Below, one piece after another: positions 897-14,410 of a stretch of DNA of 14,410 bases (position 1 is its first letter; every line of letters begins with the position of its first letter). The DNA is from Pseudomonas sp. ACM7 (GTDB taxonomy: Bacteria > Pseudomonadota > Gammaproteobacteria > Pseudomonadales > Pseudomonadaceae). The stretch is taken from the NCBI RefSeq assembly GCF_004136015.1, contig NZ_CP024866.1, positions 178,579 to 192,988 of the forward strand, given 5' to 3'. The position numbers were made by a program, and so were the translations under genes. The notes beneath the pieces were generated by a model, which ran no database searches, was not told the DNA's origin, and saw nothing but the letters and a program-made list of their open reading frames with translations.

Positions 897-989
897 GGTA
901 CTTTCTCCACCTTATTCGATAGTACCGATCGATATTTAACAGGGCATTCAACACTTCGAAACCCTGCGCGATCTTACTTTTATAAGATA

Positions 990-1448: not shown

Positions 1449-1589
1449 ATGACAACATCGCCAGCGCCAATACGGGAGCCAAATTTGTCGTTTTTAGATG
1501 AGTTGTTCGAGCAACATCGCCGGTCTATGGAACCGGCGCACTTAATGTTTTTCGTAGATAGCTCGCAGACGCCGGACATAAATGTTTGA
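1449..1589 (+). CDS. Small ORF of 46 residues, possible gene remnant
   Basis: An ATG at 1449 follows GAGGAAGGG directly, a strong Shine-Dalgarno match but closer than usual. The product begins MTTSPAPIREPNLSFLDELF, is acidic-amphipathic in its middle (DELFEQHRRSMEPA) and stops at 1587-1589. It runs against the acetyltransferase gene and overlaps its last 65 bases. I do not recognise it. It may be the start of a truncated gene rather than a functional peptide, or a chance frame. Confidence 0.25.
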   Translation: MTTSPAPIREPNLSFLDELFEQHRRSMEPAHLMFFVDSSQTPDINV

Positions 1590-1977
1590 ACTGGGCTGTT
1601 TGGGTGATGGCAACAGGTGCCGCCTGTCTGTCGAACTGTTCATAACCATTGGCGGTAAAAAAACCGGCTGCCCCTTGGGTCAACAAATGCAGTCGAAGCG
1701 CGCCTTGCGAGGCCGCACACTGTTCCAATGCAAGTAACACGGCTTGGCCCAACCCTTCTCCACGACGCGCTTCACACACCACCATTGAACGAAGCAACAG
1801 GTCGGGAGCCGAACCCTCCAGCCCTCCAAAAGCCACCCATTTCCCCGCCACTTCGAAACGGTAAAACTGCCGGCCTGGTTCGCTGACATCATCGCAGGGC
1901 AATGCTGCCTGACGCAGGGCATCACGGAGCTGATCCAGACCGTTATCGTCTACTTTAATCATCTGCATGTTCAGCAC
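1525..1977 (-). CDS. ArsN2-like GNAT family N-acetyltransferase
   Basis: A 150-residue single-domain GNAT enzyme, expected to move an acetyl group from acetyl-CoA to an unidentified substrate in the cytoplasm. The acetyl-CoA loop is visible as RRGEGLGQ (residues about 72-79) after the strand LLLRSMVVCE. The C-terminal half has the layout LHLLTQGAAGFFTANGYEQFDR followed by TAQFKHLCPASASYL. That ending, with LCPASA, is characteristic of the family annotated as arsenic-resistance ArsN2. The GTG at 1977 is chosen because AGGAGG lies 5 bases upstream; the in-frame ATG at 1968 would be 14 bases away. It starts 17 bases after the MATE stop, so the two genes probably share a transcript. No other ars gene is present, so an arsenic role is not supported by context. 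The sequence around the MATE partner suggests a detoxification role at most. Confidence 0.8.
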   Translation of the reverse strand: MLNMQMIKVDDNGLDQLRDALRQAALPCDDVSEPGRQFYRFEVAGKWVAFGGLEGSAPDLLLRSMVVCEARRGEGLGQAVLLALEQCAASQGALRLHLLTQGAAGFFTANGYEQFDRQAAPVAITQTAQFKHLCPASASYLRKTLSAPVP

Positions 1978-1994
1978 CGTTACCTCCTGCCCGC

Positions 1995-3353
1995 CTACAC
2001 CAACCGCTCAATTTTCTGATGCTGCCAGACCATTTTGTAATACGCCGTCTGCAACACCAGCATCCCCAGATACGCCACCGGAAACGCCATCCACACCCCT
2101 TGCAACCCGAAGTGCCCGTCCAGCGCATACGCCACCGGCAACTGCACGCCGACCACACAAATAATCGAAATCGCCATCGGCACCAGCACCGATCCACTGG
2201 CGCGCATGATGCCGCCGACAATCGCCTGGAAGCCGAACACCAACAGACTCCACAGCATGATGTGCAACAGGTGTTCCGCCATCGCCCGGGTGGAATCATC
2301 CGTGAGGAACAACCCCAGCAACCAGTGCGACAACAGGTAACCCAACACCACCAAACCACCGGTCAGGCACACGTTGATCAACAGCCCCGTGCGCAAAATC
2401 GGCCCCATCCGCTCAAGCCGACCTGCCCCAATCGCCTGAGCACCGAGGATCGACGCCGTGATCGCAATCGACAGCGCCGGAAACTGCACGTAGTTGACGA
2501 TCTGCGTCACCGCGCCATACGCCGCCGTCGCCTGCGAACCGTGCTGATTCACCAGCGCCAGAATCACCAGCTCCGACACCGACAACACCACCATCTGCAA
2601 CCCGGTCGGCAATCCGATGCGCAACACCTTGCCGAGAATCACCAGGTCCAGCCGCATCGCCGCAAATATCTCCCGATCCGGCGCCAACGGATGCCCCTTG
2701 CGAATCAACCGCCACGCCAGCCACCCCATCGCCGACAAGTTACCCGCCAACCCCGCATACGCCGCACTCTGAATCCCCATCATCGGCAACCCGAACCAAC
2801 CCCGAATCAACGCCGGCGTCAGCGCCAACCCGATACAGGTCGACACCACCAACGCAATCAGCGGCGACACCGTATCGCTCACCCCGCGCAGCAGTTGGGT
2901 GAAGAGCACGTAGACCAGCAGCGACGGCATGATCCACATCATCACGTGGGCGTAGGACACGGCGTCGTCGATAACGTCGGCCGGTGTGCCGAGGCCTTCC
3001 AGGGCTGGCCTTGCGAATACGCTGCCGAGTACTGCCGCTGTCAGGCCGATCATTGCGCCTAACAGCAAGGTTGTGCCGGCGATGGTCTTCACCAGATGCG
3101 GTTCACGCGCGCCCCAGGCCTGGCCGATGAGCACGCCAGCACCCGCGCCGAGGCCGATGACCAGAGCGATGAAGAAGAAGACGATGGGGAACATGCCGGA
3201 GACGGCAGCCAGGGCTTGGGTGCCGAGCATTTGGCCGATGTAGATGCTGTTGATGGTGCCCGACATGGATTGGAGGAAATTGGAGAGGACCATGGGGGCC
3301 AGGAAAAGGAGGTAGGTTTTCCAGAGAGGGTGTTGGGTGGCGGGGGTTTGCAT
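1995..3353 (-). CDS. MATE family multidrug/toxin efflux transporter
   Basis: A 452-residue protein, the usual MATE size, with about 12 hydrophobic segments arranged as two homologous halves of six. The first half carries the family pattern around PMVLSNFLQSMSGTINSIYIG and the region ALAAVSGMFPIVFF. The second half begins near residue 240 with IGLPTGLQMVVLSVSELVIL and includes AAYGAVTQIVNYVQFPALSI. MATE proteins use a sodium or proton gradient to export cationic or amphipathic compounds across the inner membrane; the substrate cannot be read from sequence. It starts at ATG 3353, with only a weak purine-rich ribosome binding site, and is followed closely by the GNAT gene. The coding strand is GC-rich, unlike the AT-richer genes farther right. 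Confidence 0.93.
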   Translation of the reverse strand: MQTPATQHPLWKTYLLFLAPMVLSNFLQSMSGTINSIYIGQMLGTQALAAVSGMFPIVFFFIALVIGLGAGAGVLIGQAWGAREPHLVKTIAGTTLLLGAMIGLTAAVLGSVFARPALEGLGTPADVIDDAVSYAHVMMWIMPSLLVYVLFTQLLRGVSDTVSPLIALVVSTCIGLALTPALIRGWFGLPMMGIQSAAYAGLAGNLSAMGWLAWRLIRKGHPLAPDREIFAAMRLDLVILGKVLRIGLPTGLQMVVLSVSELVILALVNQHGSQATAAYGAVTQIVNYVQFPALSIAITASILGAQAIGAGRLERMGPILRTGLLINVCLTGGLVVLGYLLSHWLLGLFLTDDSTRAMAEHLLHIMLWSLLVFGFQAIVGGIMRASGSVLVPMAISIICVVGVQLPVAYALDGHFGLQGVWMAFPVAYLGMLVLQTAYYKMVWQHQKIERLV

Positions 3354-3460
3354 TGAGGGTCCGTCTCGGGGGGCTGTCTTCCAGGAAATTCTACGCTAGA
3401 GAACCGGTACCAACGCGCTCCTATTTCAACGAATTTGGTCGTATAGCAACGTCTGCTTTT

Positions 3461-3627
3461 GGCCGAGGCTGTGTAAAAACGTTTTTCAGCGCGACAGGTA
3501 CTCAAAACCGGACTGGAAATCGCGCTTCTACGCAAAATCCACATCTGCTGAGGTGCCGATAAATTTCAGATTTAACGTAGACGCGCACACCTCAATTTTG
3601 GCGAAGCGTTTTTACACACTCTGGGCC
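3461..3627 (-). repeat. MITE-like 167-bp repeat, copy 1 (inverted)
   Basis: One of three diverged copies, all exactly 167 bases including a 4-base direct repeat (GGCC here) on each side. The tips are GAGGCTGTGTAAAAACG at the left and, as reverse complement of the right end, CAGAGTGTGTAAAAACGC. The interior has no coding frame. Read on the minus strand the interior aligns with copies 2 and 3 (for example a shared TCTACGTTAAATCTGAAATTT-like segment), so copy 1 is inverted relative to them. It lies between the MATE and DJ-1 genes. The flank on the left is CTGCTTTT and on the right ATGAGCGGCCACTCG, parts of a common palindromic intergenic repeat. Confidence 0.75.
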
Positions 3628-3681
3628 ATGAGCGGCCACTCGAACACATCACCTGATCGGCTGTTTTGTAGGACGAAGCAG

Positions 3682-4251
3682 TCACCGATGTTCCGCTGCC
3701 AACATTGACCTGAATTGAGAAGTGATCTCTGAAGATAGCCCGGCACCTTCGAACACTGCGCAGGTGAAGCTAACGGGTGCAGGGCCTGGAGCAGTTATGA
3801 TGCGGTCTGCAACCACAGCCACTGGACTGCTTCGATAAAGCGTGCGCCCCTCATAACCTACGGCATTCTGTTGTAAGAAGTCAGCGCTGTTCGATGTATG
3901 AGGAACCGTGTCGAGAAGCCCGGCCCTCGCAAGTGCCAGCGTTCCCCCACAGATACCGGCAATTGTCGCTCCACTTGAACGAATAGCATGAAGAAACTCT
4001 CGAATATCCGGTGCTTCTGCACGTTCCCAGACCATTCCTCCAATGACGACAACAACGTCCGGTTTCCAGTCCAGACATTGTTGCAAACTGCTATCGACAG
4101 TTACAGCCAATCCACCCTGCGAGCGGAACTGCCCCGAAGCAGAAGCGAAAAACCTGACGTCGATCCCGTAAAACGGAGACGCAGTTCCAGCAATGAAAGC
4201 ATATTCCCAGTCCGCAAAACCGGGTGTCAGTATCAATCCCACGCGTGCCAT
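3682..4251 (-). CDS. DJ-1/PfpI superfamily protein (class I glutamine amidotransferase-like)
   Basis: A 189-residue single-domain protein of the usual family size. The fold signature is the nucleophile elbow AGICGGTLALARAGLLD with Cys101 as the likely reactive cysteine. Also visible are Glu16 (DWEYAF), in the place of the conserved family glutamate, and the strand VVVVIGGMVWERAEAPDIREFL before the elbow. The segment after the elbow is HTSNSADFLQQ, where many members have a histidine-tryptophan pair. Members act as small-molecule hydrolases, deglycase-like or isocyanide hydratase enzymes, or stress chaperones; this sequence does not decide between them. It resembles the YdeA-type branch. The ATG at 4251 has GGAGG 10 bases upstream. 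It lies downstream of the recombinase on the same strand, with a hairpin between, so it may be transcribed on its own. Confidence 0.85.
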   Translation of the reverse strand: MARVGLILTPGFADWEYAFIAGTASPFYGIDVRFFASASGQFRSQGGLAVTVDSSLQQCLDWKPDVVVVIGGMVWERAEAPDIREFLHAIRSSGATIAGICGGTLALARAGLLDTVPHTSNSADFLQQNAVGYEGRTLYRSSPVAVVADRIITAPGPAPVSFTCAVFEGAGLSSEITSQFRSMLAAEHR

Positions 4252-4327
4252 CAGTCAGAATCCTCCATGAATGCAAATAACATATGGCGACAACACACAT
4301 ACATCAAGGGCTGCTTTGGGTCGGACA

Positions 4328-4352
4328 GCGACGGTCTAGCATCGACCGTCGC
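4328..4352 (-). terminator. Perfect 9-bp hairpin between recombinase and DJ-1 genes
   Basis: GCGACGGTC (4328-4336) and GACCGTCGC (4344-4352) form a GC-rich stem with a 7-base loop, ten bases beyond the recombinase stop. There is no T run after it on the minus strand, so it is a poor intrinsic terminator; it may be an mRNA 3' end stabiliser. It is preceded by GGGCTGCTTTGGGTC (4310-4324), which recurs next to the third 167-bp repeat. Confidence 0.4.
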
Positions 4353-4361
4353 AGTGGGTGG

Positions 4362-4970
4362 TCATACTTCCGTCTGTTCCGCCATTTCCAGGGCGTCATC
4401 GACCTCGATTCCCAGGTATCTGACGGTGCTTTCAAGCTTCGTATGACCAAGCAGGAGTTGGACAGCTCTCAGGTTCTTCGTCCTGCGATAGATCAGCGAT
4501 GCCTTGGTTCTCCGTAGCGTGTGAGTACCGTACATGGTTGGGTCAAGGCCAATGGCTGTCACCCACGCTTTGACTATTCGAGCGTATTGCCTGGTGGAGA
4601 GATGATCTGAGCCGTGCAACCGGGTCGGAAACAAGAAGTCCTCACTGCGGAGGTGGGCCTGATGCATCCAAGCCTCCAGAACCGTTCGGGTTTGCTCAGT
4701 GATTTCAAATTGCACTGGGTGCTGAGTTTTCTGCTGCATCACGATGGCCCGTGACGACATATGTTCCCCATGGGCTATGTCTCGTACTCGCAACTTGGTT
4801 AAGTCACAGGCACGCAGCTTGCTGTCGATAGCCAAGTTGAAGAGAGCCAGATCCCGTGTCTTCTCCGCGAGCTGGAGTCTGACCCGGATGGCCCAGATAT
4901 CTCTGACTCGGAGAGGGGCTTTCTGCCCGACAAGCTTTCCCTTGTTCCAAGGCTGGTCTGTATGTAGCAA
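4362..4970 (-). CDS. Tyrosine recombinase (phage integrase family), catalytic domain only
   Basis: A 202-residue protein made almost wholly of the catalytic domain. The active-site set is complete: Arg53 (SKLRACDLTKL), Lys81 (QQKTQ), His150 and Arg153 (HTLRRTKA), His176 (LLLGHTKLE) and the nucleophile Tyr185 (TVRYLGIE). It lacks the separate N-terminal core-binding domain of phage integrases, as is normal for this short group widespread in Pseudomonas. It would break and rejoin DNA at an unknown site. The coding frame opens only after a TGA at 4977-4979, so the first usable start is TTG 4970. However, a strong GGAGG with 7-base spacing points to ATG 4980, which is in another frame; one extra base between about 4960 and 4980 would explain this. 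The gene is therefore either started weakly at TTG or damaged at its 5' end. It is not an integron integrase by anything visible. Confidence 0.82.
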   Translation of the reverse strand: MLHTDQPWNKGKLVGQKAPLRVRDIWAIRVRLQLAEKTRDLALFNLAIDSKLRACDLTKLRVRDIAHGEHMSSRAIVMQQKTQHPVQFEITEQTRTVLEAWMHQAHLRSEDFLFPTRLHGSDHLSTRQYARIVKAWVTAIGLDPTMYGTHTLRRTKASLIYRRTKNLRAVQLLLGHTKLESTVRYLGIEVDDALEMAEQTEV

Positions 4971-4982
4971 TAGTATTCATGG

Positions 4983-5010
4983 CTTGTCCTCCACGTTGAG
5001 GGAGGACAAG
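4983..5010 (-). promoter_or_regulatory. Perfect 10-bp hairpin holding the recombinase ribosome binding site
   Basis: CTTGTCCTCC (4983-4992) and GGAGGACAAG (5001-5010) pair perfectly around 8 bases. On the minus strand the 3' arm is GGAGGACAAG followed by CC and ATG (4980). The Shine-Dalgarno GGAGG is thus fully inside the stem, 7 bases from that ATG. In mRNA this would hide the ribosome binding site and keep translation low unless the stem is opened. No riboswitch core or leader peptide was recognised. Confidence 0.6.
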
Positions 5011-5078
5011 GGTGGATCAGTCACAGTGCGTGGGGGGCGCTATCCGACCCATAGCTGACATTGAAAACAAGCACAAAT

Positions 5079-5104
5079 GGCCGATTGCTGCCGGCGACGA
5101 CCAG
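5079..5104 (+). repeat. Dispersed GGCC-started palindromic repeat, fragment
   Basis: GGCCGATTGCTGCCGGCGACG is one of several related copies in this window (also 6422-6446, 10834-10858 and 14095-14111). The shared core is GGCCGATT, one variable base, CTG, then a C/G-rich arm. No 159-bp element interrupts this copy. It lies between the recombinase leader and the diguanylate cyclase end, a gap with no gene. Confidence 0.5.
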
Positions 5105-5183
5105 CCCTGGGCGACCAAAAGTGCCCTTTAGGGGGGGCATGATGGTGATACAAACGCCATTTTCTCCAGATTGTCGTCAGAAC

Positions 5184-6116
5184 CTAAAGACTAAAAGATT
5201 GATCTCTTCCCCGTTCTTTAGCTACATAGAGAGCATTATCGGCTTGCGCCAGTAGTACGTTAGACGGGTGCAGTGGACCAAATGTATGAACTGAAAAACC
5301 GATGCTTATCGTCAAGTAGCCTGTGCTGGAAGCGGAGTGCGGTATTCTCAAATCTCGCACTCGTTGGCATAGCGACTTGACATACAGAGCTGCCTGGTCT
5401 TTCGCCATGCCGTTGGACAGAATCACAAATTCTTCGCCGCCATACCTGGCTGCAAAATCAGAGCCTCGCTGGAAGGACTTATTTAAACTATCTGCGACAC
5501 GTATTAACGCTTCATCGCCAGCTTGATGCCCATAAATATCATTGAATGATTTGAAGTGATCAACATCAATCATGGCAAGAGTCAATGAGTCGCCATTGCG
5601 ACATGCAATTTTACATTGAATTTCGAACTGCGTATCAAAAAAACGACGATTGTAAATGCCTGTGAGTCCATCTTTTATGGATAGTTGCTCGAAGTGTATT
5701 TTCATTTTTTCGAGAGACTGATGCTCGTCGCGAAGTTGTTGTTGTATTATCATTCTGGGTGTTACATCTTTTTGTATTCCAATAAAGTTGGTTACAGTCC
5801 CGTTCTCATCATGAATTGGCGATATGCTCAACTCGTTCCAAAACATAGTTCCATCCTTGCGGTAGTTTCGCAAGGTTACGAGGCAGTACTCGCCTTTTTT
5901 AACGGCATTGTGAACAATCTCCAGTTCAGGCTGTTTTCGATCGTTTCTTTGTAGGTATCGACAGTTAATATTAGTAATTTCTTCGAACGAGTAGCCAGTC
6001 ATTCGCTCAAAAGCAGGATTTACAAAAATCAACGGATTGTCGTCGATGCAATTGTCGGAGATGGTGATGCCGTCCCGTGAGTCCATAACCGCTTGTTTAA
6101 GAATTTCAATCTTCAT
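5184..6116 (-). CDS. LOV-GGDEF protein: probable blue-light-responsive diguanylate cyclase
   Basis: A 310-residue cytoplasmic protein, predicted to make cyclic di-GMP from two GTP. The N-terminal PAS domain (about residues 8-120) is of LOV type. It has NCRYLQ with Cys52, the position that forms the flavin adduct, and Arg53 and Gln56. It also keeps the flavin-contact asparagines Asn84 (NYRKDG) and Asn94 (FWNELSISP), and Gln115 (FIGIQKDVT). A short helical linker (121-145) leads to a GGDEF domain (about 146-310). That domain has DGLTGIYNRRFF, the metal-binding AMIDVDHFKSFNDIYGH, the active-site GGEEF (226-230) and the inhibitory-site RGSD (217-220), five residues before it. All parts for a light-gated, product-inhibited cyclase are therefore present. 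There is no membrane segment and no neighbouring EAL or receiver gene. No strong Shine-Dalgarno precedes ATG 6116. Blue-light activity is inferred from residues only. Confidence 0.9.
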   Translation of the reverse strand: MKIEILKQAVMDSRDGITISDNCIDDNPLIFVNPAFERMTGYSFEEITNINCRYLQRNDRKQPELEIVHNAVKKGEYCLVTLRNYRKDGTMFWNELSISPIHDENGTVTNFIGIQKDVTPRMIIQQQLRDEHQSLEKMKIHFEQLSIKDGLTGIYNRRFFDTQFEIQCKIACRNGDSLTLAMIDVDHFKSFNDIYGHQAGDEALIRVADSLNKSFQRGSDFAARYGGEEFVILSNGMAKDQAALYVKSLCQRVRDLRIPHSASSTGYLTISIGFSVHTFGPLHPSNVLLAQADNALYVAKERGRDQSFSL

Positions 6117-6187
6117 GTAAAGTCCGCTATTAGGATCAAAGGGAGGGCGCTGTTTTCAAGGGAAATAACATCTAGATATCACAATTA

Positions 6188-6193
6188 ATTATA
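6188..6193 (-). promoter_or_regulatory. Possible -10 box for the LOV-GGDEF gene
   Basis: On the minus strand TATAAT occurs at 6193-6188, about 70 bases before the start codon, in an AT-rich stretch. The hexamer 17 bases upstream (GACTAC) is a poor -35, so the call rests on the -10 alone. Confidence 0.28.
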
Positions 6194-6421
6194 CTACCTG
6201 ACTTACAAGTGTAGTCGTTGAAAAAAATACAATGTCTGTTTTCCTATACTATTCGATAATAGTGGGGATTGATTTCAGTCAAAAGCTCCGCTGAAATGGC
6301 CTTAGCTGCGCTGAATTGCATCAGAAATGACACTACATTGGGGCACAATGACGCCAGCCATATTAAGGGCTTAACCGGTCACTTCTTTTCCGCACGACCG
6401 CCAGATGACAGGCAGCTTCTG

Positions 6422-6446
6422 GGCCGATTGCTGTCTGTCGCGAAGG
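6422..6446 (+). repeat. Dispersed GGCC-started palindromic repeat, fragment
   Basis: GGCCGATTGCTGTCTGTCGC and the following GAAGG differ at only a few positions from the copy at 10834-10858. It lies in the gene-poor region 6117-6600. The open frames that cross it (6269-6472 and 6405-6749) include this repeat, have poor starts and are not supported as genes. Nothing else was recognised in 6194-6600 apart from a 6-bp dyad ACTATT/AATAGT at 6248-6263. Confidence 0.5.
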
Positions 6447-6599
6447 CTGCAATCGACTGTGAAATCAACTGATCGATGCAACAGACCGGCTAGCGTCAAC
6501 CCTGTCGCTGGGCGCACTTCAACAAATTATTGCAATGCACATTCTGTTGGACGGCGACAATTGCGTCATCATCGCCATGGATTACCGCAATCTCCCACG

Positions 6600-7134
6600 G
6601 CATCTGGGGCGATCGAACGTGAGGTGGAGGCGCTGGAGTTCCGAATATCTAGCCGCACGAATGCATTGCCTGTTCAGCTTTTCTGCCTCTGCACCGGGAT
6701 GGGTGTAGTAGATGAACGAGTGACATCAAAGACCGTGTACATCCAATAAACTGGCTCTTGGCACTCAACAGATCAATCAGCGAGTGCGCGTGTGCTCCTT
6801 CGACATCAAGAGCGCGGTAGCCATTTAAAATGGATTTCTCCCGTTCAAGGTGAGCGATTCGAGCTTCCAGTTCCTGGATTTTCTGTTGCTCCGGCATTAG
6901 CAGCCTTGCTGCGGAGTAACACCTTTGCTCTCCTACTGAAGCTGATTAACCCAGCGTGTAACGCGAACTCAACAACCCCGAGCGAACGTTAGGCTTCGAT
7001 ATGGCTGAAGCCTTCATCAAGCACGAGGCCTGCGGCCTCGCGTTTGAATTCAGCGGAAAAGGAACGACGTGGCTTGGTCTTCAGACACCTCTATCTGGCG
7101 AGCATTCTCGTCTAAATGGTGTCCGGTTTCATCA
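6600..7134 (-). mobile_element. Decayed IS3-family element (orfA and start of orfB)
   Basis: Read on the minus strand from about 7090, one frame gives PRRSFSAEFKREAAGLV and LDEGFSHIEA, the start of an IS3-family OrfA. A TAA follows at 6989-6991, then RSLGVVE, then, after a frame change, WVNQLQ and a TAG. Farther on comes PEQQKIQELEARIAHLEREK, the usual OrfA coiled coil. A last frame change gives ATALLMSKEHTRTR and a stop at 6777-6779. OrfB-like pieces continue (LIDLLSAKSQF, then SYYTHPG) until about 6600. The upstream edge is near 7117-7134, with a tip reading TGATGAAACCGGACACC. At least four lesions make it inactive. The 82-codon open frame at 6649-6897 is part of this remnant and not a gene. 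The lower boundary is approximate. Confidence 0.72.
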
Positions 7135-7184
7135 GATCCACTACAGGAAGTGTACTTTGGCTACTTGACACGCCAAGGGCTATG

Positions 7185-8099
7185 TTAGTTTTTGTAGAGT
7201 GGAAGTTTTTTTGCACTTTCGGTCCATTCAGTAATTTTCTCTGGGTGTGAGTCAAGATAATGATTGATAGCCCCATCGGGGTTTGAAGTCTCATGAGCCT
7301 CAGCCATAATTCCCTGCAAGTCGGCAAGGGGGATTTTGTAGTTTTGAAGGAAGTTCGCTGCTCGAGGGAAATCTTCACCGAACCCTTTGCGAGAAAGGGT
7401 ATGTACGCCCTCAGCACCACCTAAAGAGCCTTTTGGATCTTCCAAATAGCGTAGGTTCCACTTTCCAAACATCCAATGAGGGGTCCAGGCTGTGGCAACG
7501 ATCCAGTCTTTTTTAAGAATGGCTCGATCCATCGCAATAGTCATTGCAGTTGCGCTGCTAGCGGAGAGTTTGTAATCGACTAAGTTGTAATTTTTTATTG
7601 TTTCTTCGGATTTTCTCATTAGGCCTGCACCAGGGTCGATGCCTTGTATTGTTCCTTTAAATTTATTTGCAACTTCGGGATTTTCCAAATCAGCGATTGT
7701 TCTTACTTCGTTGACCGGCACATAGTCTGGCACCACCCATCCAAGCTTCCCGCCATAGATTATGCCTAAATCATCAACACTATTTTTGTACTTATCCCAA
7801 TAAGCAGCTTGGGTGTTCGGTAGCCAAGCCATGAGCATAGCATCAAGCTTTTTAGTTGAGATGCTTTGATATTGCACGCCAAGTGCTAGCAGTGAGAGTT
7901 TTACTTTATAATCGAGTTGTTGCTCTAGTATTTTCTTGGCCATATTTGTAACGATTTCAGAGTCCGGCTCTGAAATAAAACTCAATCGCAAGGCTTGATC
8001 TTCCCTGAATTCAGACTCCGCCGCTTGAACGCCTAATGACATTAAAGGTACCACTGCCAACGTCGCACACTTGAATACATACATAAAATCAAGCTTCAT
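7185..8099 (-). CDS. Glycine betaine/quaternary-amine-type ABC transporter substrate-binding protein
   Basis: A 304-residue periplasmic solute-binding protein of the OpuAC/ProX type. A signal peptide is clear: charged start MKLDF, hydrophobic CATLAVVPLMSLG and a probable cleavage after VQA (about residue 26). The mature part has the family's tryptophan-rich ligand cage, seen in AMLMAWLPNTQAAYWDKYK, GGKLGWVVPDYVP and ATAWTPHWMFGKWNLRYLEDP. It also has the conserved GIDPGAGLM. Such proteins bind betaine, choline, carnitine or related trimethylammonium compounds. ATG 8099 is preferred over ATG 8108 because AGGA lies 8 bases before it. It lies 101-110 bases after the dehydrogenase on the same strand, probably in one transcript. 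No permease or ATPase gene is in the window, so it must borrow a transporter elsewhere or act as an orphan. Confidence 0.9.
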   Translation of the reverse strand: MKLDFMYVFKCATLAVVPLMSLGVQAAESEFREDQALRLSFISEPDSEIVTNMAKKILEQQLDYKVKLSLLALGVQYQSISTKKLDAMLMAWLPNTQAAYWDKYKNSVDDLGIIYGGKLGWVVPDYVPVNEVRTIADLENPEVANKFKGTIQGIDPGAGLMRKSEETIKNYNLVDYKLSASSATAMTIAMDRAILKKDWIVATAWTPHWMFGKWNLRYLEDPKGSLGGAEGVHTLSRKGFGEDFPRAANFLQNYKIPLADLQGIMAEAHETSNPDGAINHYLDSHPEKITEWTESAKKLPLYKN

Positions 8100-8209
8100 T
8101 TTAATCATCCTATTATTTTAGCTTTTGGGTGGTGTATGGAAGATCAATTTACGCCAGCGCAAGCTCTTGGAGTTCCTGAATTCAGAGGAGATCCTAATTA
8201 AGCGGCTAC

Positions 8210-9136
8210 CTATGCGTGTACGGGTAGGACTTCCCACGGTGCTACCCAGTCGCCCGCCACTCGCAACGCAATCTTTGCATCATCTTCAATGAGCCGACAG
8301 ACACTCATTTCACCGGAACGCTCTCCGTAACGCTGCCTCGCTTCTTCGAAGCGCGTATGAGTTGCACGGGTTAGCTCGCAGCGTGTTCCGGTTTCATTTA
8401 ACAATTCTTCTATCAGGCCAAGATCTTTCAGGCACAGCGCAAGCGGGAAAGATGGGTCGTAGTGACCGGCAAATATCGACGGTACATCGTGTTGCATTAC
8501 GAAGCTATCGGCGGCCCCTCCCTTCATTGCTTCCCACCATACATCTGGCTCCAAACCTGCAACCTTAGCGGCTACCATAGCTTCGCCTATAGCGGCAGCG
8601 TGGATTTTCCAAAGCTGGTTGTTAACCAGCTTGGCGACGTAACCGTTGCCATAGCGGCCAACTTTTCGAATTACACCCATTGCTTCAAGAACAGGACGCG
8701 TTTTTTCGATATGAGCATCCTGCCCACCTACAAACAAAATCATGTCACCACGTATGGAGGAATCAACTGACCCGGTAACAGGTGCATCAATAGGAAATCC
8801 GCCCCGCACGACGAACTCGTCGGCGAGCTTGCGCATCATAAACGGACTGCTGGTTGTCAGGTCGATCCAGTATTTGCCAGTAATATCGGCTTCAAAAAAA
8901 CCACCGGCACCACGTACAACTTGATCAATTTGCACTGGTCCGAAGACCATGCTAACTACGACATCTACATTCTCAATCACTTCTCGAGGGCTGTCAGCCC
9001 ACACAGCACCATTGGCTAACAAAGACTCTGCCACTTCCCTCCGCAGGTCATAAACAACCAAGTCAAAGCCTAAAGCCTGAATGTTCCGAGCCGCGGGAAG
9101 TCCCATTGTTCCTAAACCAACAAATCCAATTTTCAT
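8210..9136 (-). CDS. NAD(P)-dependent beta-hydroxyacid dehydrogenase (3-hydroxyisobutyrate dehydrogenase family)
   Basis: A 308-residue oxidoreductase of the usual length. The N-terminal Rossmann fold starts with GFVGLGTMGLPAARNI (residues 4-19), the family's dinucleotide loop; Asp30 and Arg32-Arg33 follow the second strand. The substrate-binding signature is DAPVTGSVDSSIRGD (117-131), slightly altered from the common DAPVSGG form. The catalytic lysine is Lys169 in GNGYVAKLVNNQ, with Asn173 alongside, and KDLGL occurs at 237-241. Relatives oxidise 3-hydroxyisobutyrate, reduce tartronate semialdehyde or act on other beta-hydroxy acids; the altered signature and context suggest a different substrate. 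It is the first gene of a pair with the binding protein and is divergent from a LysR gene, so substrate uptake and oxidation may be linked. The ribosome binding site before ATG 9136 is weak. Confidence 0.88.
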   Translation of the reverse strand: MKIGFVGLGTMGLPAARNIQALGFDLVVYDLRREVAESLLANGAVWADSPREVIENVDVVVSMVFGPVQIDQVVRGAGGFFEADITGKYWIDLTTSSPFMMRKLADEFVVRGGFPIDAPVTGSVDSSIRGDMILFVGGQDAHIEKTRPVLEAMGVIRKVGRYGNGYVAKLVNNQLWKIHAAAIGEAMVAAKVAGLEPDVWWEAMKGGAADSFVMQHDVPSIFAGHYDPSFPLALCLKDLGLIEELLNETGTRCELTRATHTRFEEARQRYGERSGEMSVCRLIEDDAKIALRVAGDWVAPWEVLPVHA

Positions 9137-9192
9137 AATGTTTCTCGTTTTTATTGATGGGGCGATTGGAAGCTACAAGCAACATAAAATGC

Positions 9193-9209
9193 TTGTTGGC
9201 TATAAACAA
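9193..9209. promoter_or_regulatory. Candidate LysR operator between divergent genes
   Basis: TTGTT (9193-9197) and AACAA (9205-9209) form a dyad around 7 bases, containing the T-N11-A pattern typical of LysR boxes. It lies in the 126-base gap between the dehydrogenase and regulator starts, 57 bases from the former. The site's position suits control of both genes by the LysR protein, but this is inference. Confidence 0.45.
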
Positions 9210-9262
9210 ATGAAATATTATTATGGTATCGATCATGAAATGTGATAGTAGGAGGTAAGCGA

Positions 9263-10159
9263 TTGAAAAACCTTGATTTGAACCTGCTCCAGGCTTTTAT
9301 AGCCATTGTCGACAGTGGAGGTTTCACGCGTGCTGCTCACTTTTTATGCCGTACTCAGTCAGCAGTAAGCATGCAGTTGCAAAAGCTTGAAGAGCAGATG
9401 GGCAAACAATTGATTCAACGGGATAATCGTCAAATAAGGTTGACGGAAGACGGTGAGATACTTCTCGGTTATGCGCGTCGTATGATCCATCTAAATGAAA
9501 GCGCCTTTGCGGCCGTTGGAAAGCCATACACTGAGGGGCACCTCAGACTAGGCATACCTGATGATTACGCTCAGTTTTTTTTACCTTCTGTGTTGACCCG
9601 TTTTGCACATGCTTACCCACGAGTGCAGCTTGAAGTAACTGGGGCTTTGAGTGGGGAGCTGCTTGACCTACTTGAGGCGGGAGATCTTGACGTGGCTCTG
9701 ATCACGCGACAGCCAAATCGAAGCTGCGGAAAGATTTTGCGCAAAGAACGGTTAGTCTGGGTAGGTTCGCGCCAACATATGGCTCAGAGCATGGAGCCGG
9801 TTCCGCTGGCGTTTTTCCCCGAAGGGTGTGTGTTCCGTGAGCATGCCATTGCTGCTCTTAACGCCCATGGACGGCCTTGGCGAATTGCCTATTCCAGTCG
9901 GAGCTTTGCTGGAGGAACAATCGCTGTAAACGGAGGTTTAGCAGTGACTGTAATGGCCCAGAGCATGGTGCCGGTTGAGTGGCGGATCTTCGGGGTCGAG
10001 GATGATTTTCCTCAATTGCCCGAGATCGAGATCGTTTTGCATCGAGCACCGAGCAAGCTACCATCAGCCACAACGCTGTTAGAGGAACAGTTGATTGAAA
10101 GCGTCCAGACAGCTTTTAATTCAGCTTTCCGACAAGGTAGCTATTTAACACGGGCTTAG
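9263..10159 (+). CDS. LysR-type transcriptional regulator
   Basis: A 298-residue LysR regulator from TTG 9263. This start is chosen because AGGAGG (9250-9255) lies 7 bases upstream and the protein then begins MKNLDLNLLQAFIAI, the standard LysR opening. The GTG at 9242 would lie before that ribosome binding site. The winged helix-turn-helix spans about residues 4-62, with GGFTRAAHFLCRTQSAVSMQ as the recognition region and KQLIQRDNRQIRLTEDG as the wing. The effector-binding domain follows (from about 90, HLRLGIPDDYAQFFLP). It is divergent from the dehydrogenase/binding-protein pair and probably controls it in response to the substrate or a metabolite. It ends 15 bases from the convergent decayed gene. 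Confidence 0.92.
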   Translation: MKNLDLNLLQAFIAIVDSGGFTRAAHFLCRTQSAVSMQLQKLEEQMGKQLIQRDNRQIRLTEDGEILLGYARRMIHLNESAFAAVGKPYTEGHLRLGIPDDYAQFFLPSVLTRFAHAYPRVQLEVTGALSGELLDLLEAGDLDVALITRQPNRSCGKILRKERLVWVGSRQHMAQSMEPVPLAFFPEGCVFREHAIAALNAHGRPWRIAYSSRSFAGGTIAVNGGLAVTVMAQSMVPVEWRIFGVEDDFPQLPEIEIVLHRAPSKLPSATTLLEEQLIESVQTAFNSAFRQGSYLTRA

Positions 10160-10174
10160 TAAAGCGCTCACTTC

Positions 10175-10600
10175 TCAAGCGTCAGCCTCGATGAAGCAAT
10201 TGCGCATATCGGCTTCTTGGCAGATTTTTGCCAGCCGATCGTGAACAGCCTTATCCAGCTCTTCGTCGCTCCAATAGGTGTGGCCAGCTCGTAATTGCCC
10301 GACCCCAGCCGCTTCATCCCTTAGGGTTCCAGGCAGTAGTGCTCGATGTTTTCCCCGGCTCGCTTTCTGCTGCGCACGAACTTGCTATTGTTCTCGACAA
10401 CCAGGCGCAGCACGACAGTGGCGACCCGTTCGGCATCGACCTCTCCCGGCAGCCAATGAGCGTCCGCATCGCGGCGCACATGGCCTATGCACTCCACAAT
10501 GAGGCAGAGGTTGCGTACAGCAACGCCGACTCTCAGCTCGGCCACGCAACTCAGAAAATCGCTGCGATCGATCAGTTCTTGGTGTCACGGATGGTGCCGC
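10175..10600 (-). pseudogene. Decayed conserved gene, C-terminal part readable
   Basis: On the minus strand one frame reads ELIDRSDFLSCVAELRVG and then a good coding run, including GEVDAERVATVVLRLVVENN and KFVRSRKRAGENIEHYCLEP. A TAA at 10321-10323 interrupts it, in a place where a tyrosine codon would fit. The same frame continues GMKRLGSGNYELAT. Then one base seems to be missing near 10277-10284, and the next frame reads YWSDEELDKAVHDRLAKICQ and EADMRNCFIEADA, to TGA at 10175-10177. An in-frame TGA precedes the readable part near 10588. I recognise the pattern as a conserved protein of unknown function but cannot name a family. The open frames on the plus strand here are shadows. Confidence 0.5.
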
Positions 10601-10670
10601 TTTATTGAGCAGATTTAACGTCAGGGCCTAACGTTATTCCGGATAGCGTCTAGCCCGAATGACCGCTCCT

Positions 10671-10837
10671 GGCCCAGGCCGTGTAAAAACGCATTCGTCA
10701 CTTTGAAGTCAGCGTTACTACGTGAAATCTGGCGTCGACCGTTTGGTAAGTAGACCTGAAATTTGCGTAGGGACGCGATTTTTGGGCTGTTTTCGTCTGC
10801 CTCCGCAGATCGAAAACGTTTTTACACAGCCTCGGCC
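10671..10837 (+). repeat. MITE-like 167-bp repeat, copy 2
   Basis: Same length and ends as copies 1 and 3: left CAGGCCGTGTAAAAACGC, right CGTTTTTACACAGCCTC, with GGCC on both sides (10671-10674 and 10834-10837). The interior is homologous to copy 3 in the same orientation (both have TTTGAAGTC, a CGTTxCTACGT segment and AGGxACGCGATTTT). No coding frame is present. The right-hand GGCC is the first four bases of a dispersed palindrome, and the left flank GAATGACCGCTCCT belongs to the same class of repeat. The element therefore appears inserted in that palindrome. Confidence 0.78.
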
Positions 10838-10925
10838 GATTTCTGCCTGTCGCGACCGGCGGAAAACGACCCAATGCAGACGCCCAGCACAGGTAGAAAG
10901 CGGCCAGAACCGGCTGTTTAACTGG
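10834..10925 (+). repeat. Dispersed palindromic repeat, interrupted by copy 2
   Basis: GGCCGATTTCTGCCTGTCGC and the following GACCGGCGG match the copies at 6422-6446 and 5079-5104. The stretch continues with AAAACGACCCAATGCAGACG and AGCGGCCAGAACCGGC, which look like further arms. With GAATGACCGCTCCTGGCC (10657-10674) as the left half, it makes one intergenic repeat split by the 159-bp element. Nothing else was seen before the MBL gene at 11040 apart from an AT-rich leader. Confidence 0.5.
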
Positions 10926-11039
10926 AAATGGAACTGTCCCCTTCATCTTTGCATCCGTTATCCTCTCAGTGTGGATGAATAATCATAGTCAAATTCGGTA
11001 TGATTTAAAAAACCAATCAGTAAGCTAAGGCGGGTGTAA

Positions 11040-12314
11040 GTGGACGGCGTAGTTAAAGATGGTTATCCAATCGAAGATTTTCCGTCTAGTAAATTTTATG
11101 CAAAAATTGAACAAGGATCCACTGTCCAAGACTACTACCCTTTGCAAGATTGCGTTCGTCTGATTGCGGTATCACCAGATAGCTTTCAAAGTGCTGCGTT
11201 TAACTTGGAGAGCGGCTGCTCAACGTACATTTTAGATATTGGTCGTTCCGATCTATGGGGATCAGGATTGCCACGACGGCATAACCTATCCCCATTTCCA
11301 CGCCCCCGTTCTTTTTGGTTTGAGGATAGTGCTTTTGAGGACGACTCAAGCACGTCGTGGTGGGAAATTAACTACACAATTTCCCCTGTCGCGACCGGGA
11401 GCTATGCTTACTCAGCATTCACTTCCGGCGAGCCGAGGTATTTAGACGTTTCTTCAATTAGACGGGTTCTAGGTCCAGTAGTAGATCCGGTGCCATTGAG
11501 CAATGATATTTCACCGGCACTTGAACTTGAGTTCGTGACAGATAAGCCATTCAAGCTGACTGCATTTCATGTAGGGCAGGGAATGTGCTCACTTTTCTCC
11601 AACGATAAATTGGGCTACCTACTGGATGCCGGTGCTGGCACGCCTGTTACTCGTGATGTGTATAGGAAAAACCTTCATCGCACTGGAATACCGTTTGTAA
11701 ATGATCTTAGATCTGCCATAGCAGGACACGAAGAACTTTCTGCGATTATCTCCCATGCAGATAGTGATCACTGGCGGATATTAGAGTGGGATGAGGGTTT
11801 ATTGGAACAAATTAAAACAGTCTATCTACCGGCAGGCAGGCCAGCTCTCGCATTTTCTTCTCCAATGGTTAAGAGAAAAGTAGTTGGCATTCGTGACAGG
11901 TTATTTTCTCTCGGGGCACATGATCTTTTAGACGTTCACAGATCCGACCCTTCTGTTAGTGATAAGAATGGTGATGGCTTAGTCGTCGTTGTGACTTGCC
12001 AGGAGAAACAAGCACTTTACCCAGGCGATTATGTTTATGATCGAATGGCTGTCGATGGAAACCTATCTATGGTTGTATTGGCGGAGTCGAGATTTGACGC
12101 TGTCGTTGTACCGCATCATGGTGACGAGGCTAGCGCCTCGGTTATGCCCTGGCCAAAGGTTCCTGATGAGTCACAAGCATTCTTTTCTGCGGGCACGCAC
12201 GCAGGTTATGGTCATCCAACAAATGCTTCACTTTCTGCCCATGAAAGAAAAGGCTTTGTCAATATTGACAAGCATACGTGTAGTCACATCAGAGCACATC
12301 ATTTGCTTCCCTAA
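11040..12314 (+). CDS. ComEC-like metallo-beta-lactamase-fold protein of unknown role
   Basis: A 424-residue protein with no signal peptide or membrane segment. Residues 1-160 are an uncharacterised N-terminal region. From about 170 it has the MBL-fold pattern of the ComEC/Rec2 group: KLTAFHVGQGMCSLF, then GYLLDAGAGTPV, then the metal site SHADSDH (His239, Asp241, Asp243, His244). It goes on with ALYPGD (Asp330), VVVPHHGDEAS (His359-His360) and AGTHAGYGHP (His392). The ligand set for a two-metal hydrolase appears complete, and a nuclease or phosphodiesterase activity is plausible. The usual glycine after the DH pair is tryptophan here. GTG 11040 follows an AAGGCGG-like ribosome binding site. 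The gene stands alone between two direct copies of the 167-bp repeat, and its base composition is AT-richer than the MATE gene, suggesting transfer. No partner gene of a known defence system was recognised. Confidence 0.78.
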   Translation: MDGVVKDGYPIEDFPSSKFYAKIEQGSTVQDYYPLQDCVRLIAVSPDSFQSAAFNLESGCSTYILDIGRSDLWGSGLPRRHNLSPFPRPRSFWFEDSAFEDDSSTSWWEINYTISPVATGSYAYSAFTSGEPRYLDVSSIRRVLGPVVDPVPLSNDISPALELEFVTDKPFKLTAFHVGQGMCSLFSNDKLGYLLDAGAGTPVTRDVYRKNLHRTGIPFVNDLRSAIAGHEELSAIISHADSDHWRILEWDEGLLEQIKTVYLPAGRPALAFSSPMVKRKVVGIRDRLFSLGAHDLLDVHRSDPSVSDKNGDGLVVVVTCQEKQALYPGDYVYDRMAVDGNLSMVVLAESRFDAVVVPHHGDEASASVMPWPKVPDESQAFFSAGTHAGYGHPTNASLSAHERKGFVNIDKHTCSHIRAHHLLP

Positions 12315-12472
12315 ACCTCAATACCCTTCCCTTCAACCACTCTTGAAAAGGATAATTTCACGGTGTCAGTAGTGCACACAGAGCGCTTTAGGGAGGCGGT
12401 TATCGTGCTTTAGTAGGCACGTCTGAGGGACCGCTTCTCGCCGATGGCTGCGTGGCCTAAGGGGCTGCTTTG
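12315..12472. other. Short gap between MBL gene and repeat copy 3
   Basis: No gene, no T-tract terminator and no attC-like structure is visible. The last 15 bases before the repeat (GGGCTGCTTTGGGTC) also occur at 4310-4324. Confidence 0.4.
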
Positions 12473-12639
12473 GGTCCAGGCTGTGTGAAAACGCATGCGC
12501 CGTTTTGAAGTCCGCGTTGCTACGTAAAATCTGCCAGCGTTTGGTTCAGCAGCAGGCCGGAAATTTGGGTAGGAACGCGATTTTCGTTCCAGTCCTGACT
12601 GTCAAACCTGCTCAAAAACGTTTACACACAGCCTGGGTC
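12473..12639 (+). repeat. MITE-like 167-bp repeat, copy 3
   Basis: The copy has GGTC on both sides (12473-12476 and 12636-12639) and tips CAGGCTGTGTGAAAACGC and CACACAGCCTG, the best inverted ends of the three. It has the same orientation as copy 2 and the same total length as copies 1 and 2. The interior is non-coding. The left flank is GGGGCTGCTTTG and the right flank GTAAGCAGTCC. These are near inverted versions of each other, so the insertion again sits in the centre of a palindrome. Confidence 0.78.
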
Positions 12640-12714
12640 GTAAGCAGTCCATAATGACAGACAGGAATCGGCCAGATGCAAATATTCCCGGACGGAAGCA
12701 CCTAGCCTACAACT

Positions 12715-12743
12715 CGACAAACGCCCATAAACCAACGTTAGAA
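12715..12743 (+). other. attI-like or half-attC recombination site ahead of the cassettes
   Basis: CCCATAAACCAACGTTAGAAAC resembles the right end of integron attI sites (CCCTAAAACAAAGTTAGG in class 1) and ends in GTTAGAA at 12737-12743. The integron core consensus is GTTRRRY, so the last base deviates. No paired left half was found, which fits an attI or a truncated attC. It defines the left edge of cassette 1 at G12737/T12738. Confidence 0.4.
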
Positions 12744-12760
12744 ACCGAACAGGAGTAATC

Positions 12761-13039
12761 ATGCTCGAACATGTTGATATTGAAGACTTGTGTAAAATTG
12801 AAGGCCCGTTACCAAATTATTTAAAAATTGAAGTTGCACTATCTTCACTAGGCGGCCCTGGATGGGATGGTTTTGGCTTTCAAGTTAGAGTGCTAAAAGA
12901 GCTAGGTTATGACGTCGATGCAAAAGGCAATACCGACGCAACGAGAGTTAGGGCTTACAACGCAGCAGCTGACGCGATTAACAAGCTTGGTCCAAAAATC
13001 ACCGCCAAAAAGCTGCTGTCCGAGCTGGGCATTTCCTAA
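12761..13039 (+). CDS. Integron cassette 1: hypothetical 92-residue protein
   Basis: A small soluble protein of 92 residues beginning MLEHVDIEDLCKIEGPLPNY. The ATG has AGGAG 6 bases upstream. The middle is glycine-rich (SLGGPGWDGFGFQVRVLKEL) and the end helical with lysines (GPKITAKKLLSELGIS). I recognise no domain. The stop codon falls inside the R'' core (CCTAAC) of the attC site, the typical arrangement in integron cassettes, and the cassette from 12738 to 13104 is 367 bases, a usual size. No promoter is evident in the 20 bases between the cassette edge and the gene, so expression would depend on outside promoters. Confidence 0.65.
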   Translation: MLEHVDIEDLCKIEGPLPNYLKIEVALSSLGGPGWDGFGFQVRVLKELGYDVDAKGNTDATRVRAYNAAADAINKLGPKITAKKLLSELGIS

Positions 13040-13110
13040 CAATGCACTCAATTGCCGCTCACTTCGTTCGCTGGGCAGTCAAAAGCTACACTTTTGGATG
13101 CCCGTTAGCT
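13034..13110 (+). other. Integron attC-like site 1
   Basis: The site runs from an R''-like TCCTAAC (13034-13040) to an R'-like GTTAGCT (13104-13110), 77 bases. The outer arms pair imperfectly: CTAAC, then GCA and CAA on the left, match the reverse complement of the right arm (CTAACGGGCATCCAAAA). The central segment, with CGCTCACTTCGTTCGCTGGG, is of the kind common in chromosomal-integron attC sites. Both core motifs deviate by one base from consensus (RYYYAAC, GTTRRRY). The recombination point would be between G13104 and T13105. Confidence 0.6.
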
Positions 13111-13156
13111 TATTCGTGAGGCATCGCATGACATGCGATCTAGGGACTCATCTCCT

Positions 13157-13834
13157 ATGAACATGAAAGACTACCTATCAAGCACCGGCGATGCTGTTTC
13201 GCCAATGTTCAATGTCATTCGAGACTCGTCCGAGAAGCTGTTCGAACTCGGCATCTCAATCCATCACTGGATTCACTTAGAAAACTATCTCCTTGGAAAG
13301 GAACACAAAGGATGGGGGCCGCTAAAATTTGATAAGTGGCAGAAAGATATGGGGGAAGATCCCACTGTTGAGTCCGTCCAATTTTGGAGGGGAAAGCTTG
13401 AATCAATGGTTGAGGCCAGAAATGAAGCCATTAATACGCTCTGTGCCTCGATCTTGATGATTGCCCAAGCTGGAATCAAGCTGGTGCTCGGAAAGCCTAC
13501 TCTTTGGAAAGTACACGAAGGCACATTGTTATCATCGCAGAGTGAATGCCTGCTCAGCGCCATTTGGCACGGCCGCAATCTAGGGGCTCATGTGGAAGGA
13601 CTTAGCCCACAGACGCCCTCCTTTGTTTATTTTCAAGATATCCGGTCTCGCAGAAATATCGACCTTCTGTCACCTGCAATCAAATATCCCTGCAAGTACA
13701 TTGTGAAAGATCTTCTTGGTTGGATTGAGTTACACGATTTACCCATTAAGGACAGCGTGCATACAGAGTCCCACCCGTCTCCCTACGTTCAGGACATGCT
13801 CCGAATTGGCAGCCTGACGGCTCCAACGAATTAA
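13157..13834 (+). CDS. Integron cassette 2: protein with HEPN-like RNxxxH motif
   Basis: A 225-residue soluble protein, mostly helical in character. Start ATG 13157 follows AGGGA at 10 bases; ATG 13133 (eight residues longer) and ATG 13163 are alternatives. Helix-rich parts include EARNEAINTLCASILMIAQA and the segment LLSAIWHGRNLGAHVEGL. The latter holds R140-N141-x3-H145, the RNxxxH pattern of the catalytic centre of HEPN ribonucleases, found in many toxin, abortive-infection and CRISPR-linked proteins. There is no second recognisable domain and no adjacent antitoxin-like gene. The gene fills an 822-base cassette ending in attC site 2. A role as an RNase toxin or defence factor is inference from one motif; the family is not recognised. 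Confidence 0.62.
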   Translation: MNMKDYLSSTGDAVSPMFNVIRDSSEKLFELGISIHHWIHLENYLLGKEHKGWGPLKFDKWQKDMGEDPTVESVQFWRGKLESMVEARNEAINTLCASILMIAQAGIKLVLGKPTLWKVHEGTLLSSQSECLLSAIWHGRNLGAHVEGLSPQTPSFVYFQDIRSRRNIDLLSPAIKYPCKYIVKDLLGWIELHDLPIKDSVHTESHPSPYVQDMLRIGSLTAPTN

Positions 13835-13865
13835 TGAATATTCTCGCGCAGCTAACAGTGGGAAT

Positions 13866-13932
13866 GCCTAACCTTTAGTTGCAGGGAACGCCCCGCCGAT
13901 CGGCGAGACGTCCCTGAACTCAAACGTCGGAC
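13866..13932 (+). other. Integron attC-like site 2
   Basis: A 67-base site with R'' GCCTAAC (13866-13872, full match to RYYYAAC) and R' GTCGGAC (13926-13932, one change from GTTRRRY). The arms pair well. The reverse complement of the left arm, TCCCTGCAACTAAAGG, aligns with the right arm TCCCTGAACTCAAACG, with a single unpaired C like the extrahelical bases that orient attC recombination. The loop contains the palindrome CGCCGATCGGCG. It follows the cassette 2 stop by 31 bases. Confidence 0.72.
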
Positions 13933-14065
13933 GGATGGGCACGGGGGAAGTAGCTGGACCAGCTACAAGATTAAGCCAACCAACAGATGATTGCTGAGTG
14001 CATATATTGCAGTGCCTGTGAAAAGCTCCTAGAGCTATTCCTCGAACAAATAGGGGACACACCAT
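13868..14065 (-). CDS. Doubtful reverse ORF of 65 residues in a truncated third cassette
   Basis: The frame begins MVCPLFVRGIALGAFHRHC and ends within attC site 2. Its composition is protein-like, but there is no clear ribosome binding site and the last third (TFEFRDVSPIGGAFPATKG) is translated attC sequence. It may be a remnant of a reverse-orientation cassette cut off by the IS66 insertion, or a chance frame. Confidence 0.25.
   Translation of the reverse strand: MVCPLFVRGIALGAFHRHCNICTQQSSVGWLNLVAGPATSPVPIRPTFEFRDVSPIGGAFPATKG
13950..13966. repeat. Perfect 8-bp palindrome
   Basis: GTAGCTGG and CCAGCTAC flank a single A, just right of attC site 2. It could be an operator or a recombination-related site. 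No neighbour suggests a role. Confidence 0.4.
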
Positions 14066-14094
14066 TATATTGATGTTACTGACAATTTGCTTTT

Positions 14095-14116
14095 GGCCGG
14101 TTTCTGCCGGTACACC
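14095..14116 (+). repeat. Dispersed palindromic repeat fragment at IS66 junction
   Basis: GGCCGGTTTCTGCCGGT follows TTTGCTTTT, the same flank as the left side of repeat copy 1 (CTGCTTTTGGCC). The IS66 copy begins at 14117, so the right IS66 insertion lies in one of these repeats. Confidence 0.5.
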
Positions 14117-14410
14117 GTAACCGATCCACGAACTACACCTACCTCAAGATGAGGCAGTCGTTTACCGTGGCATCTCTGGCGAGCAGTTCCATGGCAGCAA
14201 GGCTTCGTAGTCCCCAACCGATTGTGCCTGCGGTAGTCTTTCCAGTACGTGGCGCAGCCACGTATAAGGCTCCTGGCCGTTGACCTTGGCGGTCTCGACC
14301 AAACTGTAGATCTGCGCACTGGCGGTGGCACCCTTGGGCGTGTCGCTGAACAGCCATGCCTTGCGCCCGATTACAAACGGCTTTATCGCGCGCTCCGCCG
14401 CGTTGTTGTC
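14117..14410 (-). mobile_element. IS66-family insertion sequence, 3' end (right copy)
   Basis: The reverse complement matches positions 6-299 with no difference noticed. The tip reads GTAACCGATCCACG at 14117. The element runs off the right edge. Opposite orientation to the left copy makes the window an IS66-bounded inverted arrangement with 13.8 kb between. Confidence 0.88.
14162..14410 (-). CDS. tnpC: IS66 family transposase TnpC, C-terminal fragment (right copy)
   Basis: The visible 82 codons begin with [12 protein letters not shown] and end with the stop at 14162-14164. The protein is the same as the left copy. The start lies beyond the window. Confidence 0.9.

Follow-up and report, generated by a model that had tools for sequence, protein, structure and literature searches.

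We have found in the chromosome of Pseudomonas sp. ACM7 two genes in the same orientation with a site of the attC type behind each, in a genome which has no integron integrase (IntI) at profile level. This locus is very probably a CALIN of only two cassettes, its sites probably decayed and its genes left fixed. The window, which is the whole stretch of 14,410 nucleotides that we have analysed, corresponds to bases 178579-192988 of a complete genome of 6.60 Mb in one contig. Chromosomal integrons occur in members of the genus Pseudomonas. The features of the locus and its neighbours are:

11040-12314, plus strand: MBL-fold gene, upstream of the cassettes; 424 aa, with weak ComEC/Rec2 and Avs1a matches
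12460..12640, no strand assigned: a dispersed repeat bearing terminal inverted repeats, close to the cassettes on their upstream side; it recurs at about 3448-3640 and 10658-10840
12738..13116, plus strand: cassette 1; its 3' end is given by site 1, its 5' end is a candidate, GTTAGAA cut after the G (between 12737 and 12738)
12761..13039, plus strand: ORF1, a small helical protein of 92 aa
13034-13122, plus strand: site 1, attC-derived, of the Pseudomonas chromosomal-integron lineage (from covariance and relatives); R'' TCCTAAC 13034-13040, extrahelical base 13049, R' GTGAGGC 13116-13122 (degenerate)
13117..13926, plus strand: cassette 2, between the crossover points of sites 1 and 2
13157..13834, plus strand: ORF2, 225 aa, the start chosen from relatives; an upstream in-frame ATG at 13133 would give 233 aa
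13866-13932, plus strand: site 2, attC-derived, of another lineage (from covariance, log-odds and pairing); R'' GCCTAAC 13866-13872, extrahelical G 13881, R' GTCGGAC 13926-13932 (degenerate)
14103..14410, minus strand: C-terminus fragment of a transposase, right neighbour (from translation; matches in many relatives)

The first-pass annotation had described this region as two genes in the same direction, each with an attC-like site behind it, in a cluster without an integrase. It was right and needs correction in two points: site 1 ends further on, and the R' boxes have degenerate cores. Two models of attC were used, with sites gathered from arrays of other genomes and from one class 1 integron. 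The log-odds model was trained on n=50 sites, which come from genomes other than this one and from a single plasmid. It has a gapless spacing which is common to many known sites: R'' of 7 bases, a spacer of 5, 3 paired bases, an extrahelical base at position 16, 6 paired bases, the loop, 6 and 3 paired bases, a spacer of 6 and R' of 7. This template was designed with the known sites and site 2 in view, while the window had no part in the training of letters and pairs. Within the window the highest scores of this model fall precisely behind the two genes, site 2 with 33.3 and site 1 with 27.7; the third place has 19.5. The null maximum is 22.0 in 1,595,819 positions (40 stretches of 20 kb of the same genome, both strands) and 20.0 is the highest score among 200 dinucleotide-shuffled versions of 12600-14410 (plus strand). 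Both sites are below all 50 leave-one-out training scores, site 2 just below; the minimum of these scores, 33.4, is flattered, since the training sites were picked by a strict pattern which requires YAAC and GTT.

The covariance model, R1, was built from 39 attC sites: three from a class 1 integron, 29 from stretches that adjoin IntI genes and seven from Pseudomonas arrays, four of them with IntI in the locus. Covariation supports its stem: two-sided changes are seen in 129 cells, against 43.6 in shuffles. A covariance search had been proposed as a check on the first-pass reading. Our model, which is not IntegronFinder's own, matches both sites: 13866-13932 with 26.4 bits and 13034-13122 with 19.8 bits. 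They are the only matches at E<=10 in the window plus 800 kb of the same genome (814,410 bases), with E values of 0.0008 for site 2 and 0.055 for site 1. With the filters off, the next match in the window is 6967-6994 (12.2 bits, E 0.12), in which most of the stem is missing. A search of the whole genome, in which 150 of 4940 candidates were scored, reported site 2 alone, with E 0.0065. R1 gives 211 matches at E<=1 in 26 loci, mostly arrays, among which are the loci that it was built from; the sites of the window are in the lower part of their range. Beside the cassettes no further attC was found. CALINs are an established kind of element, and according to PMC9024848 two attC sites are the threshold for this label: here two were found, with a covariance model made by us. 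Published lineage-specific attC models include one for Pseudomonadales, as described in PMC8352920.

Site 1 belongs to a known lineage of attC, that of the Pseudomonas chromosomal integrons. When 12690-14060 was compared by blastn with 298 genomes of the genus, matches were found in at least 36. Site 1 itself is matched in at least 32 of 297 other genomes, many of them with several copies in a row (best E 6.6e-28); this count leaves out our own genome and G078, G108 and G291, which match elsewhere in the query, and two candidate stretches were scored per genome, so that the counts are lower bounds. In 20 fetched loci there are 83 match rows, with about 90% identity at best over 89 bases. These relatives sit as spaced repeats in arrays, in several genomes beside IntI. 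In G193, for example, IntI is found at 3568023-3568964; the first listed site comes 621 bases further and the sites run from 3569585. We chose 25 of the 32 genomes, and 17 of them have an integron integrase above the TIGR02249 cut-off. The other eight (G112, G279, G290, G053, G147, G146, G022 and G027) have site 1-type sequence with no IntI match at E<=1e-40; they are possible further CALINs, although seven of the eight assemblies have more than one contig.

The relatives also define where site 1 ends. They align with the window through 13123, and CCCGTTAGCTTAATC-GTTAGGC is their usual right end, in place of which CCCGTTAGCTTATTC-GTGAGGC stands in the window. The site had been placed at 13034-13110: it is real, its true end is 13122, 12 bases further on. 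The bases previously taken as R' (13104-13110) belong to L'; with them the log-odds score is 10.2, against 27.7. The stop codon of the gene does fall inside R'' (TCC-TAA-C), as had been noticed. In the fold, five of the seven R pairs are formed and the L stem is weak; the extrahelical base at position 16 is a C at 13049, that is a G on the bottom strand. Among plasmids, relatives over most of site 1 are found in P. fragi (E 2e-8) and in two Shewanella records (E 4e-4).

The P. fragi plasmid (NZ_CP021133.1) has a solitary attC of site 1 type, at L012:3998-4085. One of its neighbours is a recombinase-family gene, adjacent to a Tn3-like transposase; the gene on its other side codes for a nucleotide-binding protein. 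IntI is not annotated within this stretch of 8 kb; it is perhaps another stray cassette.

Site 2 belongs to another lineage. Its coordinates in the first-pass annotation agree exactly with those given by R1, and the unpaired base in its fold is also confirmed. There is a single one, at position 16, which is the place of the conserved first extrahelical base according to PMC2727003. The L stem is fully paired (9/9). The extrahelical base is a G on the top strand, a normal variation which is found in eight of the 50 training sites. We also read the site in reverse, as the minus strand gives a perfect R' (GTTAGGC): its log-odds score is 5.1, against 33.3, and this reading was rejected. Relatives of site 2 are not found by blastn in the 298 genomes of the genus, with two candidate stretches scored in each, and there is no significant match in plasmids. 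Neither site has a second copy in its own genome by blastn.

The letters of the boxes show what has changed. According to PMC2727003, conservation of letters in attC is limited to AAC in R'' and GTT in R'; the crossover point is between G and TT of R' (PMC3518468). AAC is intact in both R'' boxes. GTT is absent from both R' boxes, neither of which matches GTTRRRY; this had been missed in the earlier reading. For this reason we call the sites attC-derived rather than functional attC, and given the degenerate cores "decayed CALIN" is a better label than intact array. In the relatives of site 1 found through their other, intact boxes R' starts with GTT in 55 of 55 cases; the regular expression behind this count skips damaged right boxes, including two relatives without GTT, L041:11184 and L042:7318. 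A scan with the core pairs unscored gave 179 sites in 34 loci: 148 have GTT in register and 31 do not. Among the latter there are 19 whose R'' has AAC and whose GTT is shifted by up to three bases, three with AAC and an R' misplaced by the scan in comparison with R1, two GTC sites, in one of which R'' has GAC, and seven that lack AAC and are probably false. GTG is found in none of the 179. The two GTC sites (L058:5102 and L065:6455) and L041:11184 are the last ones found in their arrays; L042:7318 (R1 match 7333-7421) is the last but one, with a weak site of 15.6 bits beyond it. As sites without GTT are found at or near the end of other arrays, three out of four in the last position, site 2 may be a natural array end. 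The change in the R' of site 1 looks like decay.

The corrected end of site 1 modifies the size of the cassettes. Since crossover occurs after the G of R', cassette 2 has 810 bases (13117-13926), and cassette 1 has about 379; the values of 367 and 822 given earlier do not stand. For the 5' end of cassette 1 the candidate is a GTTRRR core which precedes the ATG by 23 bases. A half-site CGCCCATAAACCAAC-GTTAGAA (12722-12743) was tried at this place and rejected: its score is -3.4, and about 0.5 such places are expected per 120 positions. The cassettes have a G+C content of 45.1% and 48.8%, which is no sign by itself because the whole window is also low, 50.5% against 58.6% in 400 kb of the chromosome.

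The lack of an integron integrase, which had been noted for this stretch, holds for the complete one-contig genome: no protein is above the TIGR02249 cut-off. There are eight weaker matches, the best with 84 bits against a cut-off of 265, which look Xer- or phage-type; weak matches of this kind occur in 14 of 14 control genomes. A true IntI is found in 57 of 143 genomes in a sample of the class. No integrase remnant was found beside the cassettes, and the DNA upstream has only short chance matches to six Pseudomonas attI regions. A complete integron has an intI gene and an attI adjoining the array, and neither was found here. The suggestion that the dispersed repeat and the MBL gene have taken the place of the integrase finds no support: in the comparison with the six attI regions no attI-like sequence was found there. 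A tyrosine recombinase of 202 aa is present elsewhere in the window, at 4362-4970 on the minus strand (Phage_integrase E 2.6e-19, residues 36-186). As a candidate for IntI it was discarded, with 23 bits for the IntI profile against the cut-off of 265.

The dispersed repeat is present in three copies of about 180 bases, with termini GGCTGTGTAAAAACG...CGTTTTTACACAGCC; it is MITE-like and has matches in several other genomes of the genus. The window is bounded by two inverted fragments, 6-313 and 14103-14410, which are 98% complementary. The latter we take, from its motif, to be of an IS66-type transposase; an identical copy of 296 bases is found at G000:C1:1431192-1431487. The protein coded at 11040-12314 has no Pfam match at E<=0.01; it weakly matches Avs1a, the MBL protein of the AVAST type 1 defence system. 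In 143 other genomes, with two candidate stretches scored per genome and these mostly filled by repeats, no empty site was seen, and nothing listed matches the intervals from 12675 to site 1 or from site 2 to 14103. The matches listed in 144 genomes, our own included, are copies of the repeat, the transposase fragment and site 1.

The two cassette proteins belong to small families, both of them rare. ORF1 has 11 relatives besides itself, a structural model with pLDDT 90.2 and no match in a structure search. It matches HHH_8 (helix-hairpin-helix) with E 4.9e-4 and 20.9 bits, below the cut-off of 30; this profile matches 12 of 12 members of the family, with a best E of 6.6e-5. One relative, P0023, continues beyond the usual end as NNTLKAQLRSPGPAKPAP, which we have read by eye as probably translated from an attC of the same lineage as site 1. 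ORF2 is all-helical (pLDDT 91.9) and has 19 relatives besides itself. HEPN ribonucleases have the motif Rx4-6H. ORF2 contains RNLGAH (R140-N-L-G-A-H145), which is an Rx4H, and its R, N, L, A and H are invariant in 20 of 20 sequences. No match was found in Pfam or NCBIfam, and neither profiles nor folds gave a match in favour of a HEPN enzyme. ORF2 has the motif, and is called HEPN-like here rather than a HEPN enzyme, without a confirmed family.

The spread of these genes is patchy. In a sample of 398 genomes of the genus ORF1 is found once, and ORF2 once in 369 of the class; both times the genome is our own, the other 397 and 368 giving no match. No relatives of either protein were found in the collections genome_contigs and viral_contigs. 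In plasmids ORF1 has no match, and ORF2 only one of 31% over half its length, in Priestia. Two relatives of ORF2 are named Vibrio (V. parahaemolyticus and V. splendidus) and one Pseudomonas, and in 14 of the 19 the longest contig is below 10 kb. Presence in a single genome among those sampled, with relatives on mostly short contigs, in Pseudomonas and two Vibrio, makes this distribution cassette-like.

From what is seen directly, namely the sites and their orientation, the kinship of site 1, the changes in R' and the lack of a profile-level IntI, we infer the following order of capture, loss and decay. Each gene would once have been a circular cassette. By the established mechanism, an IntI would have captured it through the bottom strand of its attC, in folded form. 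The pair would be a mosaic, with site 1 from the Pseudomonas chromosomal-integron lineage and site 2 from another one; cassette arrays are mosaics. The integrase would have been lost, or would never have been close by. In its absence the sites would have drifted, and the third base of GTT would have gone from both R' boxes. As both boxes lack this base of the crossover triplet, little or no mobility would be expected, even with an integrase entering in trans.

The locus could have a different origin, although we consider it rather unlikely: a transient IntI, perhaps on a plasmid, might have put the cassettes into a non-classical genomic site (attG or secondary) and left them stranded, so that no integron was ever present here; this would alter the history of the two cassettes and their sites, not what they are. 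The lack of attI-like sequence upstream and of an IntI above the cut-off in a complete genome agrees with such an origin, and PMC12901181 and PMC12444791 describe cassettes that insert at attG sites of the genome. However, two head-to-tail cassettes with attC of different lineage are more simply explained as a fragment of an array. Secondary sites are said to follow GNT (PMC3518468), whereas the right junction is here GTC, and the position of GTT-less sites in other loci, three of four in the last place and one in the last but one, fits site 2 as a natural end.

It appears improbable that the cassettes are still mobile, in the sense that the altered R' boxes would allow their excision and reinsertion by an IntI arriving in trans. 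It is true that PMC12444791 describes mobilisation of CALINs in trans as possible and that a change from G to C at the first extrahelical base (position 16, bottom strand) cuts attI x attC only 2.7-fold, according to PMC2727003; the extrahelical base of site 2 is present in natural sites (8/50) and, judging by sequence, GTC is also found in two sites of other arrays. But it is GTT, with AAC the only conserved letters of attC in the same source (PMC2727003), that both sites have lost, and the core-unscored set has just 2/179 sites with GTC in register and 0/179 with GTG. A bolder proposal has little chance of being correct: the loss of GTT would be a recurrent way of locking cassettes at array ends or in orphans, the pair would here have been domesticated, and one of its genes would represent a possible new family of HEPN-like ribonucleases in Pseudomonas and Vibrio. 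Finally, we can hardly be dealing with ordinary intergenic hairpins (terminators, REP-like repeats) which merely resemble attC: folding as single-strand DNA is weak in site 2 (z -0.46 and -1.69, not separated from shuffles), z is -2.58 and -1.58 in site 1 (on the shorter stretch 13034-13116) and Rfam matches are at chance level only, but the spacing and orientation are exactly those of attC, scores of 33.3 and 27.7 exceed the null maximum of 22.0, there is no second copy by blastn in the genome and no terminator-like pattern at either site, and for site 1 its close relatives in integron arrays already refute such an explanation.

The decayed two-cassette CALIN can be compared with known systems. 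It shares with the CALIN class the presence of two attC-type sites in the same orientation, each after a gene, and the lack of an IntI above the cut-off; it differs by its minimal size and by the degeneration of both R' boxes, the sites being recognised with a model other than IntegronFinder's own. Pseudomonas chromosomal integron arrays (L037, L041, L044 and L048) have sites to which site 1 is about 90% identical at best over 89 bases. In these loci IntI and an attI region are present and R' mostly starts with GTT, whereas none of the three was found in the window. A CALIN in Xanthomonas citri pv. citri also has two cassettes and no intI, and is read as an inactivated platform in PMC12444791, where it is said to adjoin secD in every pv. 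citri genome. Unlike it, our locus has no relative found in the same place, among 143 other genomes with two candidates scored in each. This kind of element is already known: the locus is one more small CALIN, a fairly ordinary relic of gene exchange.

Its presence indicates that attC sites of Pseudomonas type and their cassettes reach a chromosome which holds no recognisable integron. It also gives an example of how orphan attC sites appear after the loss of the crossover triplet, and adds members to two small, rare families of cassette proteins. The sites without GTT which we have found at or near array ends or in orphans give a hint that this position may be a general feature of such sites.
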